From IMG/VR virus record IMGVR_UViG_3300044732_000488, positions 1 to 29,953 of that record: a DNA stretch of 29,953 bases, one strand, 5' to 3'. A program made the position numbers and the translations under genes. Position 1 is the stretch's first letter, and every line of letters starts with the position of its first letter. This document shows positions 6,284 through 29,365 of this stretch, one piece after another. This DNA comes from a virus. A model generated the notes under the pieces. The model was not told the DNA's origin. It saw nothing but the letters and a program-made list of their open reading frames with translations, and did no database searches.

Positions 6284-6814
6284 TTAAGAAACTACGTCCT
6301 CAGATACCAAAGTTAACAATTCTGTTTTTGTAGTGTTATCCAAAAATGGAGATAATGAACCCTCCTCCGCAGCTACTGTCAAAGTGTAACCTGATAAATC
6401 TCCACCCGCTGCTCCTGTTACTTTTGTACAGTTGCTCATCGTTCCATTGGTCAATCCAACTAAGTGAATGTTACCGTTATAATCTTCAACAAATACAAAA
6501 GGTCTGCCTTGACAAATCAACTGTACTTGCGCTTGTAAATCTGCTGCCAATTTTGGAAGCGTAACCGCCAAAGATTGAGCAACTAAATAAGTTCCGTTAT
6601 CTTCTGAACTTGTGCCAGTTTCTGTTAGTGCGTTAGTAGTTGCTTTTACTTCGTATTTAAAAACTTCGGTTAAAGTTCCCAAATCTGTAACCGCTTGCGC
6701 TGCTACTACGAATCCGTAATTATCGTAATTAGCAAAGTAAAGGTTTTTAATACCACCCCTTTGATTCTTACAATTATTCAAAAGCCTCCCCGCTGTTATA
6801 GGACAATATGCCAT
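6284..6814 (-). CDS. Putative major tail (tube) protein
   Basis: This 176-residue protein begins MAYCPITAGRLLNNCKNQRG and shows the Cys/Gly-rich N-terminus and GGIKNLYFANYDNYGF segment common in Bacteroidota phage tail-tube-like proteins. It also has FVEDYNGNIHLVGLTNG and a GDLSGYTLTVAAEEG stretch. A tail tube subunit would polymerise around the tape measure. Position supports a highly expressed structural protein: it directly follows the major capsid gene, separated by a stem-loop, and is closed by a strong terminator. The assignment is by pattern and context rather than a certain family match. Confidence 0.6.
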   Translation of the reverse strand: MAYCPITAGRLLNNCKNQRGGIKNLYFANYDNYGFVVAAQAVTDLGTLTEVFKYEVKATTNALTETGTSSEDNGTYLVAQSLAVTLPKLAADLQAQVQLICQGRPFVFVEDYNGNIHLVGLTNGTMSNCTKVTGAAGGDLSGYTLTVAAEEGSLSPFLDNTTKTELLTLVSEDVVS

Positions 6815-6833
6815 AATATTTTAATTTAAAATA

Positions 6834-20214: not shown

Positions 20215-20348
20215 CGTGTGTAAACTTCTCTAATTTCGTAATTGTATAAACCTTTTAGCTCCGCTCTAATTTTTGCTTGCTCCTCAGTTCGGTAATAATT
20301 TTCAGAGTGCTGGTCCTCTTGTGTCCAAATGTAAAATTGTTTTCTCAT
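20211..20348 (-). CDS. Small protein, 45 residues, first gene after ninG
   Basis: The ATG at 20348 opens a 45-codon frame that begins MRKQFYIWTQEDQHSENYYR and ends EIREVYTR. Its TGA overlaps the next ATG. It is preceded by a promoter-like sequence 25 bases upstream. Composition and coupling support a real gene. No family was recognised. Confidence 0.65.
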   Translation of the reverse strand: MRKQFYIWTQEDQHSENYYRTEEQAKIRAELKGLYNYEIREVYTR

Positions 20349-20372
20349 AATATGTAAAATTTAATGTTTAAA

Positions 20373-20399
20373 CAAATATTAAAAGAATTTTTTTATCAA
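20373..20399 (-). promoter_or_regulatory. Probable promoter for the small-gene operon after ninG
   Basis: On the minus strand TTG at 20399-20397 is followed after 16 bases by AATATTTG (20380-20373), one mismatch from the TAnnTTTG box. It lies in the gap between ninG and the 45-residue gene, which supports use despite the imperfect match. Confidence 0.45.
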
Positions 20400-23227: not shown

Positions 23228-23257
23228 CAAATATAAAAATAAATTCTAAATAATCAA
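23228..23257 (-). promoter_or_regulatory. Promoter of the replication operon
   Basis: TTG (23257-23255), 19-base spacer and TATATTTG (23235-23228) match the Bacteroidota sigma-A consensus TTG-N17-23-TAnnTTTG. The -33 element overlaps the end of the NinB-like gene. Predicted start is near 23223. Confidence 0.75.
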
Positions 23258-23694
23258 TCTAAATTTAATAAAATTTCCTCGTTAGGATTTGGGATGTCAA
23301 CTCCTAAAAATTCTGCGCTCCATTTCTGAACTTCCATAACATACTCCATAAACTGAACCGTACTCATTTCGCTAGAACTAATTTTCTCCGATAACACTTG
23401 CCCAGTATCAATATTTACAATCTCATTACTCGGGGAAAACAAGGGAAGTAATATTCCGTAATGAATAGAATCCGCACTCCTGAACTCTCCAGTAGCATCT
23501 TTTAAGCCACTTTGTACAATCGGAATAACAACTGCCCAATAAAATGCGTTTTGATTGTTAGATCGGCTCTTTTTTAGTTTCTCAATAGTAATAACAATGT
23601 TCTTACCCTCAAACTCTGCAATCGCTTGTTTAACTTGTTCTCGATTGCGTTTAAGATTTCCGTTCTCGACGCTGGAAATTATTTTGTGTTTCAT
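23254..23694 (-). CDS. NinB / Orf-like recombination protein (putative)
   Basis: This 146-residue protein contains SRSNNQNAFYWAVVIPIVQS near residue 45 and a C-terminal FMEYVMEVQKWSAEFLGVD followed by IPNPNEE. This resembles the layout of NinB/Orf proteins, which help load recombination proteins onto single-stranded DNA. It completes a recombination set with the ERF protein and the SSB-tailed protein. The family match is by pattern only; sequence similarity to lambda NinB is weak. Confidence 0.55.
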   Translation of the reverse strand: MKHKIISSVENGNLKRNREQVKQAIAEFEGKNIVITIEKLKKSRSNNQNAFYWAVVIPIVQSGLKDATGEFRSADSIHYGILLPLFSPSNEIVNIDTGQVLSEKISSSEMSTVQFMEYVMEVQKWSAEFLGVDIPNPNEEILLNLD

Positions 23695-24031: not shown

Positions 24032-24526
24032 TTAAAGATTAATAAAAATAGTTTCTTGTTGTTGTGTTATGTTGTATTTGGTTTTTACTTGATCCAATGA
24101 AAAGCCGCCATCTTTTGCCTTTTTTAGTATTTCGGTTGTGGCGTTTGGTTTTGGCTCGACTGCCTTTTGCCCATCGTCATCATCTGCGCCAACGCAAACG
24201 AATGATTGAAGCGAATATCTACGTGCGTAACTTATTCCCGATCCCTGCGCTTGTGCATCGTTGATCTTGTTGTAAACTATTTCCGTAAGTGATTCCATCA
24301 TCTCGCCAGTTTCGTGCAGCAAAATAGTTTTGACAAAGTTTTTGCCATCCACGTGAACAATCGGCTGGAGAACCGAAATCCCGTTTGCGTTTAGCGTTGG
24401 AATAACTGCCTCCCGGATCGAGTTTAAATCTGCGTATTTGCTTTTAAAAAATGGATTTACTGCGCCTTTTTTGGCGTTGCTCATTTCTGACTGTGCTTTT
24501 AGTAAAGCGGTTGCAATGTGTTTCAT
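24032..24526 (-). CDS. erf: ERF family single-strand annealing protein
   Basis: This 164-residue protein shows the ERF pattern: VNPFFKSKYADLNSIREAV near residue 22, a strand/helix core, then QAQGSGISYARRYSLQSF and VGADDDDGQ near residue 100-115. ERF proteins anneal complementary DNA strands and promote phage recombination, often for genome circularisation or repair. The C-terminal tail is short and charged. The gene lies in a recombination operon under a structured leader. Confidence 0.9.
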   Translation of the reverse strand: MKHIATALLKAQSEMSNAKKGAVNPFFKSKYADLNSIREAVIPTLNANGISVLQPIVHVDGKNFVKTILLHETGEMMESLTEIVYNKINDAQAQGSGISYARRYSLQSFVCVGADDDDGQKAVEPKPNATTEILKKAKDGGFSLDQVKTKYNITQQQETIFINL

Positions 24527-24555: not shown

Positions 24556-24999
24556 TTAAAATGATATTGCCATACTACTTTTGCGTGGCGTTGTACTAAC
24601 TTTAGGCACCTGAACTCCTGCCGCATCGTATATTTCGTTTTGCGATTTCAAAGCTAACTTTAGTAAGTCCTCACGTTCTTTTAATTCTCGGTTAATGTCG
24701 CTCCACACTTCGCAATCTTTAAAGTTAATCGTTTCCCCTCCGCTTCGGAATGTACCTTTTAGTCCAAACGCTTCAAAGTTTTCCTGCGGTAATACTTTTA
24801 AAAGTTCGGCGTTAATTACTTCCAACGCTTCGCCCATTCTTTTGGCTTGCGCTAATAGTTCAATTTTGTCAATCTCGCCAGCATCTAACACTTCTTTGAT
24901 AAATGTTTTTGCAGATAGCTGGATCTCTAGCTTGTTTGGAAGGAAATTTTGCGTGTCAATCTCTTGTTGGCGCATTAACTGGAATAAATCTTTACTCAT
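24556..24999 (-). CDS. Hypothetical first protein of the recombination operon
   Basis: This 147-residue, helical, acidic protein begins MSKDLFQLMRQQEIDTQNFL and contains KEREDLLKLALKSQNEIYDA near residue 108. It precedes ERF, an SSB-tailed protein and a NinB-like protein, so it may assist recombination or protect DNA, as with other proteins placed upstream of annealing genes. The leader has a kissing-loop candidate and an attenuator-like hairpin. Its start-codon region matches a predicted antisense RNA from 27690-27746. Function not recognised. Confidence 0.75.
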   Translation of the reverse strand: MSKDLFQLMRQQEIDTQNFLPNKLEIQLSAKTFIKEVLDAGEIDKIELLAQAKRMGEALEVINAELLKVLPQENFEAFGLKGTFRSGGETINFKDCEVWSDINRELKEREDLLKLALKSQNEIYDAAGVQVPKVSTTPRKSSMAISF

Positions 25000-25011
25000 A
25001 ATGTTTTAATT

Positions 25012-25096
25012 AAAAAATCCTAACTTAAATCCTACTGGTCAGAGTAGGCAAAATTAGGATCGATTATAGTTTTTCTCTCAATCTCTGACCAGATTG
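25012..25096 (-). ncRNA. Structured 5' leader of the recombination operon with kissing-loop and attenuator-like hairpin
   Basis: Hairpin 1 (CAAUCU-GGUCAG-AGAUUG, 25096-25079) begins about six bases after the -7 box. Hairpin 2 (25060-25017) has outer stem AUCCUAA / UUAGGAU, an internal loop, inner stem CCUACU / AGUAGG and apical loop CUGACC. That loop is perfectly complementary to loop GGUCAG of hairpin 1. Hairpin 2 is followed at once by a U run (25017-25012), 12 bases before the ATG at 24999. It could act as an attenuator. The same DNA could also hold two operator copies with core CTGGTCAG. Confidence 0.7.
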
Positions 25097-25101
25097 TTCT
25101 G

Positions 25102-26563: not shown

Positions 26564-26817
26564 TATAATAATTCGTTTAGTTTGTTATGTAAAAATTCAA
26601 AGTCATTTGCGTAAGTTGATTTTAGTAACTCAATAATTTTCGAGTTAACCGCTTTGCGATACGCAACCGCATTACGCATTTGGTTGATTTTGCGTTCTAA
26701 ATCGCAAATCTCATTTTCCATTTGCTCCTCAATAGTCAACTCCAATTCTGTTTCCTCTTGGTTCGCTGGGTGGCTACTGTTGCCAACTCCTAACACATCG
26801 TGATCGTAATTTATCAT
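26563..26817 (-). CDS. Coiled-coil protein, 84 residues
   Basis: The product begins MINYDHDVLGVGNSSHPANQ, a polar N-terminus, followed by an acidic helix (EETELELTIEEQMENEICDL) and a basic helix ending LHNKLNELL. Its start overlaps the TAA of the 29-residue membrane protein (TAATG). The two adjacent coiled-coil genes may make a complex. No family was recognised. Confidence 0.7.
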   Translation of the reverse strand: MINYDHDVLGVGNSSHPANQEETELELTIEEQMENEICDLERKINQMRNAVAYRKAVNSKIIELLKSTYANDFEFLHNKLNELL

Positions 26818-26906
26818 TAGTATCTAAATATTATTTGCGTTAGAAACCATACCGCTGCGCCAAACGCAATTAAATACTGCCAATCATTTTTTTGTAATCT
26901 GTTCAT
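26817..26906 (-). CDS. Very small membrane protein, 29 residues
   Basis: The ATG at 26906 opens MNRLQKNDWQYLIAFGAAVW and ends FLTQIIFRY. A basic N-terminus and one hydrophobic span indicate a membrane peptide. The stop is the first part of TAATG for the next gene. This is the first gene of the methyltransferase cluster and follows a region rich in GTTCA half-sites. Confidence 0.6.
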   Translation of the reverse strand: MNRLQKNDWQYLIAFGAAVWFLTQIIFRY

Positions 26907-27194: not shown

Positions 27195-27202
27195 CAAATA
27201 TA
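27195..27202 (-). promoter_or_regulatory. Promoter -7 box of the 54-residue gene
   Basis: TATATTTG on the minus strand is identical to the boxes of the recombination and replication operons. The -33 region is T-rich but lacks a clear TTG. A start near 27190 leaves about 40 nt of leader. Confidence 0.65.
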
Positions 27203-27217
27203 GAATCTAAATTGTAA

Positions 27218-27233
27218 TAAAAAAATTTTTTTA
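27218..27233. repeat. A7T7 palindrome in the divergent promoter region
   Basis: TAAAAAAATTTTTTTA is a perfect 16-bp palindrome centred between the minus box (27195-27202) and the plus box (27250-27257). Such A-tract DNA is rigid and curved, and may act as an UP-like element or a protein site for both promoters. Confidence 0.4.
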
Positions 27234-27249
27234 TGTAAAAGTTTATTTG

Positions 27250-27257
27250 TAGGTTTG
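27250..27257 (+). promoter_or_regulatory. Candidate plus-strand promoter box of the mini-operon
   Basis: TAGGTTTG fits TAnnTTTG and ends four bases before the ATG at 27262. Transcription would start at or beside the start codon, giving a leaderless mRNA. No TTG was found at the right spacing. Confidence 0.4.
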
Positions 27258-27261
27258 CAAA

Positions 27262-27471
27262 ATGAAAATAACTCACATTAACACAATCCAAAACCCTAAG
27301 TTTATAATAGTTCGGCACTATGATAATTCTATTGTAACTTTGCCATCTGAATTTAGAGTAGTTGAGGAAAATGCAATCGGTTGCTGGCGTGTGCGGATTA
27401 TCGATAAAATACCTACTGAATATAAACAAACAAATAATATAATATGGCAGGCAGACCAAAAAAAGGAATAG
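27262..27471 (+). CDS. Plus-strand small protein, 69 residues
   Basis: The product begins MKITHINTIQNPKFIIVRHY and has a compact beta-like body (RVVEENAIGCWRVRIIDKIP). It is the first of three overlapping plus-strand genes that run against the rest of the genome, likely an early or regulatory unit. A minus-strand frame over the same bases (27184-27459) was rejected. No family was recognised. Confidence 0.7.
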   Translation: MKITHINTIQNPKFIIVRHYDNSIVTLPSEFRVVEENAIGCWRVRIIDKIPTEYKQTNNIIWQADQKKE

Positions 27472-27593
27472 AGAAAAGAGAACCGTATAACGGAAAACTT
27501 GAAAAGTATAAGATTGAAGTTATCGGAGGTACAAAAGAATGCAACCGATTGGCTTATGAATATTTAACTAAAAGATACAATGAAAAAAAATAA
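27444..27593 (+). CDS. Plus-strand small basic protein with AT-hook-like N-terminus, 49 residues
   Basis: The ATG at 27444 overlaps the previous gene by 28 bp. The product begins MAGRPKKGIEKREPYNGKLE and ends YLTKRYNEKK. GRP flanked by basic residues is the core of AT-hook DNA-binding peptides, which insert in the minor groove of AT-rich DNA, apt in this genome. It could be a regulator or nucleoid-like protein. This is inferred from the motif alone. Confidence 0.6.
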   Translation: MAGRPKKGIEKREPYNGKLEKYKIEVIGGTKECNRLAYEYLTKRYNEKK

Positions 27594-27663
27594 CGAGGGT
27601 TTGGTGCTTTTAATAGCTTTGCTTTTGGTATCTTTAATTTATGGAGTTTTAGTTTGTTTGTAA
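27580..27663 (+). CDS. Plus-strand hydrophobic peptide, 27 residues
   Basis: The ATG at 27580 overlaps the previous gene by 14 bp. The product is KKNNEG followed by one strong hydrophobic span (LVLLIALLLVSLIYGVLVCL). It looks like a small membrane peptide, similar in kind to type I toxins, holin-like or exclusion peptides. The next promoter overlaps its end. Function unknown. Confidence 0.5.
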   Translation: MKKNNEGLVLLIALLLVSLIYGVLVCL

Positions 27664-27685
27664 TTAAAATTAATTATTACATTTG
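27657..27685 (+). promoter_or_regulatory. Plus-strand promoter of a candidate small RNA
   Basis: TTTG (27657-27660), a 17-base spacer and TACATTTG (27678-27685) match the Bacteroidota sigma-A consensus very well. The start is expected near 27690-27692. No gene lies between it and the terminator at 27717-27746. Confidence 0.7.
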
Positions 27686-27689
27686 CAAC

Positions 27690-27746
27690 TCATAATGTTT
27701 TAGTTTGATAGATTAGAAAAGCCACTATTTATTTAGTGGCTTTTTT
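27690..27746 (+). ncRNA. Candidate small RNA (about 55 nt) antisense to the recombination-operon start
   Basis: The interval is bounded by a strong promoter and a strong terminator. The first 26 nt should be single stranded. The DNA at 27688-27705 matches the plus strand at 24994-25011 at 17 of 18 positions, with 15 contiguous (ACTCATAATGTTTTA). That site is the antisense of the start codon and upstream region of the gene at 24999; the odd position gives a G-U wobble. It may base pair there and block translation. There is no useful reading frame in it. Confidence 0.55.
27717..27746. terminator. Bidirectional terminator between converging transcripts
   Basis: AAAAGCCACTA (27717-27727) and TAGTGGCTTTT (27734-27744) form an 11-bp stem with loop TTTATT. 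On the plus strand it is followed by further T residues (27741-27746). On the minus strand the run is TTTTCT, a weaker but usable end for the late operon. Confidence 0.85.
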
Positions 27747-27847
27747 ATTTCATCCTCAATCGGTGGAATCCCTTTCCATTTGTTGACTGGCAGTTGTATT
27801 CGCACCCAGTCTTTACCTTGTTTTATCCATTTGTACTCCAGGATCAA
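27725..27847 (-). CDS. Possible 40-residue last gene of the late operon (TTG start)
   Basis: A TTG at 27847-27845 overlaps the spanin stop as TTGA and opens a 40-codon frame (LEYKWIKQGKDWVRIQLPVN, ending IEDEIKKPLNK) that stops inside the terminator. Composition is protein-like and aromatic. The rare start and the overlap with a terminator make it uncertain. Confidence 0.35.
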   Translation of the reverse strand: MILEYKWIKQGKDWVRIQLPVNKWKGIPPIEDEIKKPLNK

Positions 27848-28341
27848 AGCAAGGGAAATTTGAGATAGCCTTTATATCTGCGGTAAGCTAAATAAATAGC
27901 CAGTAGAATCAAGAGCCACAACCACCACAACTGCAAAATAAATGTACTCCAGTTGAACTGCTCCTTGTAAACTATCTTTGTACTTTCAACTTTGTTGACT
28001 TCAATCTCGTTTGTAAGCGAATCAACGATGATTTTAGACACGCTTTTCTCGTTTACTACAATAGTATTGTCTTTTCTTTTTTTCTTCGTTAAACGTGCGT
28101 TTTTGTATTTAGTTACTTTGCCCTCGTTGTTTATAATCTCGATTGGCTTGGTGCTATCGACCGCTTCGATAATTATTTCCTCACTAACTACATCAAATTT
28201 AATTGAAGTGCTATCTTTAGAAATAGAATCGGTTTTGGTAACTGCAATAGTTTTGGCAATACTATCTGTTTTTTTATCGTCTTTATTAATTGTTTTTGCA
28301 CCGCAGGAAATAATAAGAAACGCAAGTAGTAAATATTTCAT
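27844..28341 (-). CDS. Putative unimolecular spanin (lipoprotein with C-terminal membrane span)
   Basis: This 165-residue protein starts with a signal MKYLLLAFLIISCGAK, with lipobox IISC and acylated Cys13. A long charged periplasmic region follows (KKTDSIAKTIAVTKTDS and more). The C-terminal part has a strong hydrophobic span near residues 130-150 (FILQLWWLWLLILLAIYLAY) and a basic end. A lipoprotein anchor at one end and a transmembrane span at the other is the plan of u-spanins such as T1 gp11, which join inner and outer membranes at lysis. It sits after the lysozyme and phosphoesterase. Confidence 0.65.
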   Translation of the reverse strand: MKYLLLAFLIISCGAKTINKDDKKTDSIAKTIAVTKTDSISKDSTSIKFDVVSEEIIIEAVDSTKPIEIINNEGKVTKYKNARLTKKKRKDNTIVVNEKSVSKIIVDSLTNEIEVNKVESTKIVYKEQFNWSTFILQLWWLWLLILLAIYLAYRRYKGYLKFPLL

Positions 28342-28342
28342 T

Positions 28343-29365
28343 TTAAACTATTTTGTAATTGATAATGCGGATGTTTTTCAATTCGTAGTTGCCATCTTTG
28401 TCCGTTTTGACGTGAGCGAATCCGTGATTATAGTTATTATAAGGAGCGTATTCAGGTTCAAGTCCGCAAAGGCATCCAGTTGACCAGGTTGTAACTACTT
28501 GACCGCTTAAAGTCTTTTCAGTATGCTCGCTTGTTCTATGATGATGGCCAACTAATGCGCTTTCTTTTGCTTTTAAAAACAACCCCCTTGCTGGATTGAC
28601 TGGAGGTGCAAATCCGCCATACCATTCGTGACCGTGAAGTATTGGGAGTTTTCCCGCCATTGCGATCTGTTTATCTTTAATCAAAGTAACTCCAAATTCT
28701 CTAAATCTTAATAATTGCTCCAACTTAAAATCATCAACCCCTAAAAGTTCTGGAGCTTTTAACATTAAATAATGCTCCCATCTCGCTTCGTGGTTGCCGA
28801 TCTTAAAATATATCGGGCATTTAAACATCTCCTGGATCATTTTTAAAAAGTTTCTAGTCATTTCCAACTCCCCAGCTAGATCACGCAATCTCCTATCTTT
28901 TGTAAATCTACTGGCTTGGTACATATCTATTGTATCGCCATTCAAATAAACTGCATTAACCTTATTTTCAAGTCCGTAATTTAAAGCAAGTGTCAAAGCG
29001 TGATTGTCTTGGTACGGCAAATGTATATCTGATAAAACTAGGATATTATTTTGACCTCTAGGAATAATAAAAGGCTCAATTTTGGAGTAATCGCTTTCTG
29101 GAAGTTCAGCTATTTTGCGCATCGCAAGTTTTTTTTCCTCTTCTGTTCTAATTGCAGTTGGAGATACATTTGAATTTTTATTTCCTTCGCATCTGTATCG
29201 CCTAACATTACCACGAACGCCCTCAACACTCGTAAAATCCAACGGGTTCTCATTAAAAATCATTCTAGCAATAGCCATCGTTGTAGATTTTGGAAATCTT
29301 TGCAAATAAGACAAAATAATATTTTTTTTGTAGGTCGCAGCATTTTGATTTCCTTTTACGCTCAT
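28343..29365 (-). CDS. Calcineurin-like metallophosphoesterase
   Basis: The start chosen is the ATG at 29365 (MSVKGNQNAATYKKNI), ten bases after the lysozyme stop; an upstream start would overlap the lysozyme gene. The N-terminal part (about residues 1-95) is basic and helical and may bind DNA or regulate. The catalytic domain has all metallophosphoesterase motifs: SDIH (112-115), NGDTID (142-147), GNHE (190-193), HGHE (244-247) and GHHH (273-276). It may hydrolyse nucleic acids or nucleotides. Its position between lysozyme and spanin is unusual. Confidence 0.85.
   Translation of the reverse strand: MSVKGNQNAATYKKNIILSYLQRFPKSTTMAIARMIFNENPLDFTSVEGVRGNVRRYRCEGNKNSNVSPTAIRTEEEKKLAMRKIAELPESDYSKIEPFIIPRGQNNILVLSDIHLPYQDNHALTLALNYGLENKVNAVYLNGDTIDMYQASRFTKDRRLRDLAGELEMTRNFLKMIQEMFKCPIYFKIGNHEARWEHYLMLKAPELLGVDDFKLEQLLRFREFGVTLIKDKQIAMAGKLPILHGHEWYGGFAPPVNPARGLFLKAKESALVGHHHRTSEHTEKTLSGQVVTTWSTGCLCGLEPEYAPYNNYNHGFAHVKTDKDGNYELKNIRIINYKIV

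Follow-up and report, generated by a model that had tools for sequence, protein, structure and literature searches.

An IMG/VR virus record carries a gap filled by a promoter-like sequence and a terminator, with small ORFs clustered in rightward orientation on one side (27262-27663) and a group of leftward genes on the other (an ORF at 27725-27847, another at 27844-28341 and a phosphoesterase gene). Does this gap encode a small RNA, and which messages would such an RNA control? The window, i.e., the whole stretch of DNA analysed, comprises 29,953 bases and has a terminal repeat of 124 bases, so that the phage genome is probably complete. Among annotated sequences it matches Flavobacterium phages most closely (~68% identity across one gene), and the host group of the uncultured phages carrying the RNA is probably the flavobacteria. 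Our preferred reading, to which we give a probability of about 0.6 from sequence analysis, is that the locus encodes a trans-acting antisense small RNA that represses translation of several of the phage's own genes.

A conserved promoter-terminator unit

The unit spans 27653-27746 and consists of a flavobacterial-type promoter followed by 57 nt of non-coding sequence and a strong terminator (Table 1). The first-pass annotation had described the promoter as TTTG-N17-TACATTTG, and a TTTG is indeed found at 27657-27660, 17 nt before TACATTTG; the relatives align at the first TTTG (27653-27656) instead. It had also described a strong terminator following the promoter with no gene between, which agrees with the hairpin at 27717-27746 (z -5.0) and with the lack of any ORF of at least 40 aa from promoter to terminator. 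The sigma-A TAnnTTTG box of F. psychrophilum occupies -12 to -5 (PMC9723704), which places the predicted +1 at 27690. As TANNTTTG alone is frequent in the window (76 on both strands), the evidence for the promoter lies in its conservation and not in the match. The RNA is predicted to fold into a single terminator hairpin (-18.5 kcal/mol, z -5.0) that leaves the first ~26 bases mostly unpaired and thus accessible. Promoter and terminator without an ORF give the locus the predicted layout of an independent short transcription unit.

Conservation was assessed from the 39 related loci that encode the same 147-aa protein as the window. Alignment of the region matching 27201-28360 gave 22 relatives, which were thus picked via this protein and the surrounding DNA, with the RNA sequence unused. 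In all 22, TACATTTG is followed after four variable bases by TCATAATGTTT, GTTTGATA and the terminator, and the 5′ UCAUAAUGUUU is kept as well, while the upstream ORF, the promoter spacer and the downstream DNA are more variable than the RNA unit. The conserved block starts exactly at the predicted +1; since the four bases before it vary and the block from +1 is constant, the pattern fits the RNA as the conserved entity. A pattern scan of IMG/VR gave further copies, for 18 distinct alleles in total. The 100% identity of box and seed in a set chosen by the pattern is circular; the unbiased set is the 22 relatives. In the terminator alignment 98% of cells are paired, and an A-U/G-C exchange keeps one pair of the stem in 5 of the 18 alleles (three alleles have a mismatch there). 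Judged by these comparisons, the small-RNA unit is real and strongly conserved, with a conserved seed that is predicted to be single-stranded; three relatives have another seed.

The unit might instead merely close the rightward small-gene cluster, supplying its 3′ end and terminator, with a promoter-like sequence that arose by chance in AT-rich DNA. The terminator is located where the cluster should end, TANNTTTG is common, and the right arm of the stem also encodes the end of the convergent ORF at 27725-27847 (-). Yet box, seed and terminator stay intact behind an unrelated upstream gene in L013, L016 and L023, and before different downstream DNA in L003, L004, L014 and L027, and we regard this explanation as hardly credible. 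The terminator may still serve the cluster as well. Adjoining the small RNA upstream is an ORF for a 27-aa hydrophobic peptide (MKKNNEGLVLLIALLLVSLIYGVLVCL, 27580-27663, +), with other DNA in its place in L013, L016 and L023.

Very improbable, too, is a DNA operator or relic, in which the minus strand from 27710 to 27690 would be the remains of a gene start or early leader (ATCAAAC..AACATTATGA), and the conserved block would be bound by protein or be a leftover. The minus strand does resemble the leaders of other genes (ATCAAAC...AACATTATGA), and its ATG opens 7 codons in the window. Against this, the plus-strand -7 box and terminator are kept in 22 contigs, which is unexpected of a relic, and the motif lies at start codons in all target families, a better fit to RNA and translation than to an operator. 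A coding role of the minus strand over the seed was ruled out, as its ORF has 7-45 codons and is frame-shifted between alleles, with non-synonymous changes.

Searches further afield gave no match at the gathering score for the RNA locus with the Rfam 15 covariance models (window and eight related loci) and no convincing relative of the locus among annotated phages. The box-plus-seed pattern had four matches in 84,980 bacterial and archaeal species genomes, all chance-like and in unrelated bacteria, so that neither a prophage copy nor a host was found. A covariance model run on the divergent 147-aa relatives L032-L036 and L038 and on filifjonk9-1 gave weak terminator-like matches and no convincing RNA.

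Table 1. Positions of the predicted RNA unit, its candidate targets and associated features (window coordinates unless a related contig is named).
Feature	Position	Strand	Remarks
-33 element TTTG	27653..27656	+	homologous position in relatives; spacing to -7 box 21 (19 or 21 in relatives)
-7 box TACATTTG	27678..27685	+	Bacteroidetes TAnnTTTG; identical in 22 relatives picked by surrounding-region similarity
Variable discriminator, -7 box to predicted start	27686..27689	+	CAAC in window; elsewhere CCTT, TCAT, TCAC, TCGC, TAAC
Predicted small RNA, ~57 nt	27690..27746	+	predicted +1 through end of T run
5′ seed UCAUAAUGUUU	27690..27700	+	invariant; antisense to AAACATTATGA start contexts
Second conserved segment GUUUGAUA	27703..27710	+	complementary to (T)ATCAAAC, leader 5′ ends of 29-aa, 82-aa and 45-aa genes (relatives)
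Predicted intrinsic terminator	27717..27746	+	AAAAGCCACTA-TTTATT-TAGTGGCTTTT at 27717-27744, then T tail
Complementary site, leader and start codon of 147-aa gene	24996..25011	-	predicted pairing
Attenuator-like hairpin	25018..25060	-	followed by T6 (25012-25017), just upstream of 147-aa start
147-aa gene	24556..24999	-	heads recombination operon; best target within window
Erf single-strand annealing protein	24032..24526	-	phrog_2324 8e-43, PF04404 3e-25
NinB/Orf recombination mediator	23254..23694	-	phrog_72 2e-14
45-aa gene (MRKQF..), start region	20327..20383, start 20348	-	weak in window, strongest target in several relatives
29-aa membrane-peptide gene (MNRLQKNDWQYLIAFGAAVWFLTQIIFRY)	26817..26906	-	leader strong target in many relatives, weak in window (-10)
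Metallophosphoesterase gene	28343..29365	-	start targeted in some relatives
176-aa gene, start region	6794..6830, start 6814	-	second-best in window, -16.7 to -16.9 kcal/mol
Alternative seed allele	L006 296-366; L017 3477-3547; L071 2007-2076		same slot and backbone
Extra promoter-terminator units	L003 640-1050; L014 560-880; L027 2050-2390; L050 6000-6340; L004 about 3700

Complementarity to translation starts

According to the first-pass annotation the 5′ end of the RNA is antisense to the start region at 24994-25011, including the AUG. The complementarity was recovered: the repeat ACTCATAATGTTTTARTT occurs in the window at 27688-27705 and 24994-25011 only, as does ACTCATAATGTTTTA(A/G)TT, giving a predicted pairing of 16-18 nt with one G-U. 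Shuffled sequences, with up to three mismatches allowed, gave a mean of 0.28 matches, and two matches were reached in 2 of 100. Of the 18 pairs, 16 fall within an RNA with +1 at 27690 (27690-27705 with 25011-24996) and span the AUG at 24999-24997. The gene that begins here encodes the 147-aa protein, for which Pfam and PHROG gave no match, and behind it in the operon follow Erf (PF04404), a phrog_24909 protein and NinB.

For an RNA starting at 27688 the duplex with the 147-aa start (-22.5 kcal/mol) ranks first among 44 start regions, with an energy that 0 of 1500 dinucleotide-shuffled RNAs attain at any start. For an RNA starting at 27690 the same start is the best among 45 (-18.3 kcal/mol) and 14 of 1500 shuffles do equally well, so that under this strict start the p value for the window is only ~0.01. 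The z of the 147-aa start region is about -7 in the window, and a scan of the entire window, coding interiors included, found a few sites with equal pairing. By these calculations the partial complementarity to translation starts encoded elsewhere is above chance. The RNA (27690, +) does not lie opposite its candidate targets (24999 and elsewhere) and is in this sense not a cis-antisense RNA such as sar, OOP or aQ.

Start contexts of the form AACATTATG(A) recur at the 147-aa, 45-aa, phosphoesterase, 29-aa membrane-peptide and 82-aa genes. In the relatives the same 5′ end pairs equally or better with the 45-aa, 29-aa and phosphoesterase starts that carry AACATTATGA. When whole loci were scanned with the RNA of the respective contig, the starts of the five families came out near the top, and across 14 contigs the mean z was -2.4 to -4.8 in these families versus -0.9 in 347 other ORFs. 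The strongest pairings are bipartite, joining UCAUAAUGUU to the start codon and GUUUGAU to ATCAAAC where a short leader begins; in the 29-aa gene this ATCAAAC leader lies directly behind a TATATTTG box. As the 147-aa start is the main target in the window, where the 29-aa leader pairs weakly, and other starts are stronger in the relatives, the target set appears to turn over between phages.

The 29-aa peptide (MNRLQKNDWQYLIAFGAAVWFLTQIIFRY, 26817-26906, -) is itself highly conserved and probably a single-pass membrane protein. In most relatives its gene has its own TATATTTG promoter directly upstream, and its leader is complementary to the small RNA, which recalls the arrangement of type I toxin-antitoxin pairs.

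Seed variants and the range of targets

The first-pass annotation had asked for conservation of both sites in related phages. The RNA unit is kept in 22/22 relatives, and a 10-13 nt core of the complementarity is kept at the 147-aa start in most relatives. It had also named the pattern that would speak against it, relatives in which promoter and terminator are kept and complementarity is lost, and this is seen in part: L006, L017 and L071 carry a different seed (UAAUUUUGUUAUAAG) in the same slot, with the promoter kept, the same backbone and the same type of terminator. L006 and L017 nevertheless retain the AAACATTATGAG target start, and in L013 and L031 the RNA is kept and the 147-aa start is changed.

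These exceptions bear on the proposal that the RNA is dedicated to the recombination operon, controlling the 147-aa gene by antisense pairing and Erf via coupling. In its favour, the 147-aa start ranks first among the start regions of the window (z about -7), and the core is retained in most relatives. With better pairing at other starts in most relatives, seed and target changing separately in the four contigs above, and no sign of coevolution for the 147-aa gene (p 0.35), we consider it improbable. What stands of the recombination operon as a target is therefore the match to the AUG of the gene heading Erf and NinB, not its role as the dedicated target.

The value of 0.35 comes from a comparison of matched with mismatched RNA-target pairs, which also found no advantage for the phosphoesterase (p 0.55), 45-aa (0.29) and 82-aa (0.93) genes, with few distinct seeds and little power. 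The 29-aa leader showed a marginal matched-pair advantage (p 0.048, uncorrected for five tests and again with few distinct seeds). Covariation of the 2-3 bases before the seed with target codon 2 looked suggestive in the window, L004 and L022; it was rejected, since these bases precede the predicted +1 and a permutation test was negative.

A real phage small RNA could also have its main target elsewhere, in a host mRNA or a binding protein, with the start-codon match as a by-product of its CAUAAU seed. ATTATG is a common start context in flavobacterial phages (24 of 68 genes in filifjonk9-1, where CATTATG is absent), so that some pairing is expected of any RNA containing CAUAAU. The different seed in L006, L017 and L071 and the lack of a matched-pair advantage for most targets point the same way. 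However, the pairing exceeds ATTATG and extends to AAACATTATGA, plus ATCAAAC in several leaders; it reaches 16-18 nt in the window, and z is far lower than for other ORFs of the same contigs. Among gene families with ATTATG starts, CATTATG is found in 9 of 44 in phages with the RNA versus 4 of 74 in those without (Fisher p 0.016), although one family among these nine may simply be the RNA's own antisense. All in all we see a main target elsewhere as possible, if rather unlikely.

In some relatives, one or two further promoter-terminator units of ~100-140 nt without obvious genes lie downstream of the small RNA, and GTGCCCAACTATTCATTAGCATTAGTGCTGCAC is common to several of them. In one related phage contig, L014 4962-4994 matches the DUF805b RNA in Rfam (RF02914).

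The locus might be an exchangeable small-RNA slot. Its backbone (GUUUGAU..UAG and terminator) would be constant and its seeds swappable (type A UCAUAAUGUUU; type B UAAUUUUGUUAUAA, with three contigs found), and some phages would have one or two extra units in tandem. Because the targeted start contexts are common to related phages, such RNAs might be directed at relatives that compete or superinfect, besides the phage's own genes. The specificity of c4 RNA varies among relatives (heteroimmunity; PMC12197685). The slot would then provide a c4-like RNA heteroimmunity in flavobacterial phages without known prophage copies, an idea that we regard as unlikely at present.

Proposed action and relation to known RNAs

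We return to the preferred reading of a trans-acting RNA with several targets among the phage's own genes. Its own promoter (27653-27685) would drive a ~57-nt RNA ending at its own terminator, and the unstructured 5′ end (UCAUAAUGUUU..GUUUGAUA) would pair with start regions of phage mRNAs that have a AACAUUAUGA context. The main target in the window would be the 147-aa gene; in relatives the 45-aa gene, the 29-aa membrane-peptide operon and the phosphoesterase would be further ones. F. johnsoniae does not use Shine-Dalgarno sequences, and initiation there depends on A at -3, -6 and -12/-13 and on how the mRNA is structured near the start (PMC6847099). A duplex reaching from the AUG to about -12 would conceal both the A-rich stretch and the AUG, which a ribosome working without a Shine-Dalgarno requires. 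The masked starts would lower translation of the targeted genes, perhaps as a shut-off later in infection.

P22 sar RNA is encoded in cis, opposite its target, and is fully complementary to it; c4 RNA of P1 and P7 is processed from the ant transcript, and lambda OOP RNA pairs with the 3′ part of cII. All three resemble the proposed RNA: the short sar RNA pairs with the phage's ant mRNA and hinders translation initiation, c4 acts by antisense close to the ribosome-binding site of a phage gene, and the small OOP RNA is transcribed from a promoter of its own and is antisense to the phage gene cII (PMC12197685). Unlike sar, the present RNA is encoded 2.7 kb from its target and has partial complementarity to several starts. 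Whereas c4 pairs through loops, it has its own promoter and a linear 5′ seed, and whereas OOP is cis-encoded and promotes RNase III cleavage, it is proposed to mask start codons in trans. As far as its sequence allows a comparison, the RNA probably works like sar and c4, with encoding in trans, a linear 5′ seed and several targets as the differences.

In infection, the phage small RNAs lambda PreS and VP882 VpdS likewise act in trans (PMC12197685). They differ in binding Hfq and in belonging to gamma-proteobacteria, where PreS targets host dnaN and VpdS targets phage and host mRNAs. To our knowledge, Hfq is generally missing in Bacteroidetes, and the present RNA would presumably act independently of a chaperone. 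Rfp18 of Flavobacterium psychrophilum is a flavobacterial small RNA with one pairing region and several predicted mRNA targets, but it is chromosomal, has metalloprotease genes as predicted targets and is reported to have a strong fold (PMC9723704). The phage small RNAs covered by the review cited above act mostly in gamma-proteobacteria and often use Hfq (PMC12197685). Our literature search, of incomplete coverage, found no relevant report on small RNAs of flavobacterial or Bacteroides phages.

If the preferred reading is true, the RNA would exemplify antisense control in phages whose probable hosts dispense with Shine-Dalgarno sequences, where an unstructured A-rich leader decides start choice. 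It would also define a small, testable regulon (the 147-aa recombination leader gene, the 45-aa gene, the 29-aa membrane peptide and the phosphoesterase) and offer a natural translational-control tool for flavobacteria.

At the 147-aa gene, the RNA would act solely on transcripts that pass the leader hairpin (Table 1). This attenuator-like leader (25012-25097, -, in the window, and L002-L033) is absent from Rfam and has two alleles that share one architecture, though unrelated, and are interchangeable. In each, a 5′ segment (CTGGTCAGAG or CCGCCAAG) is the perfect complement of a segment inside the T6-ended hairpin before the start codon.
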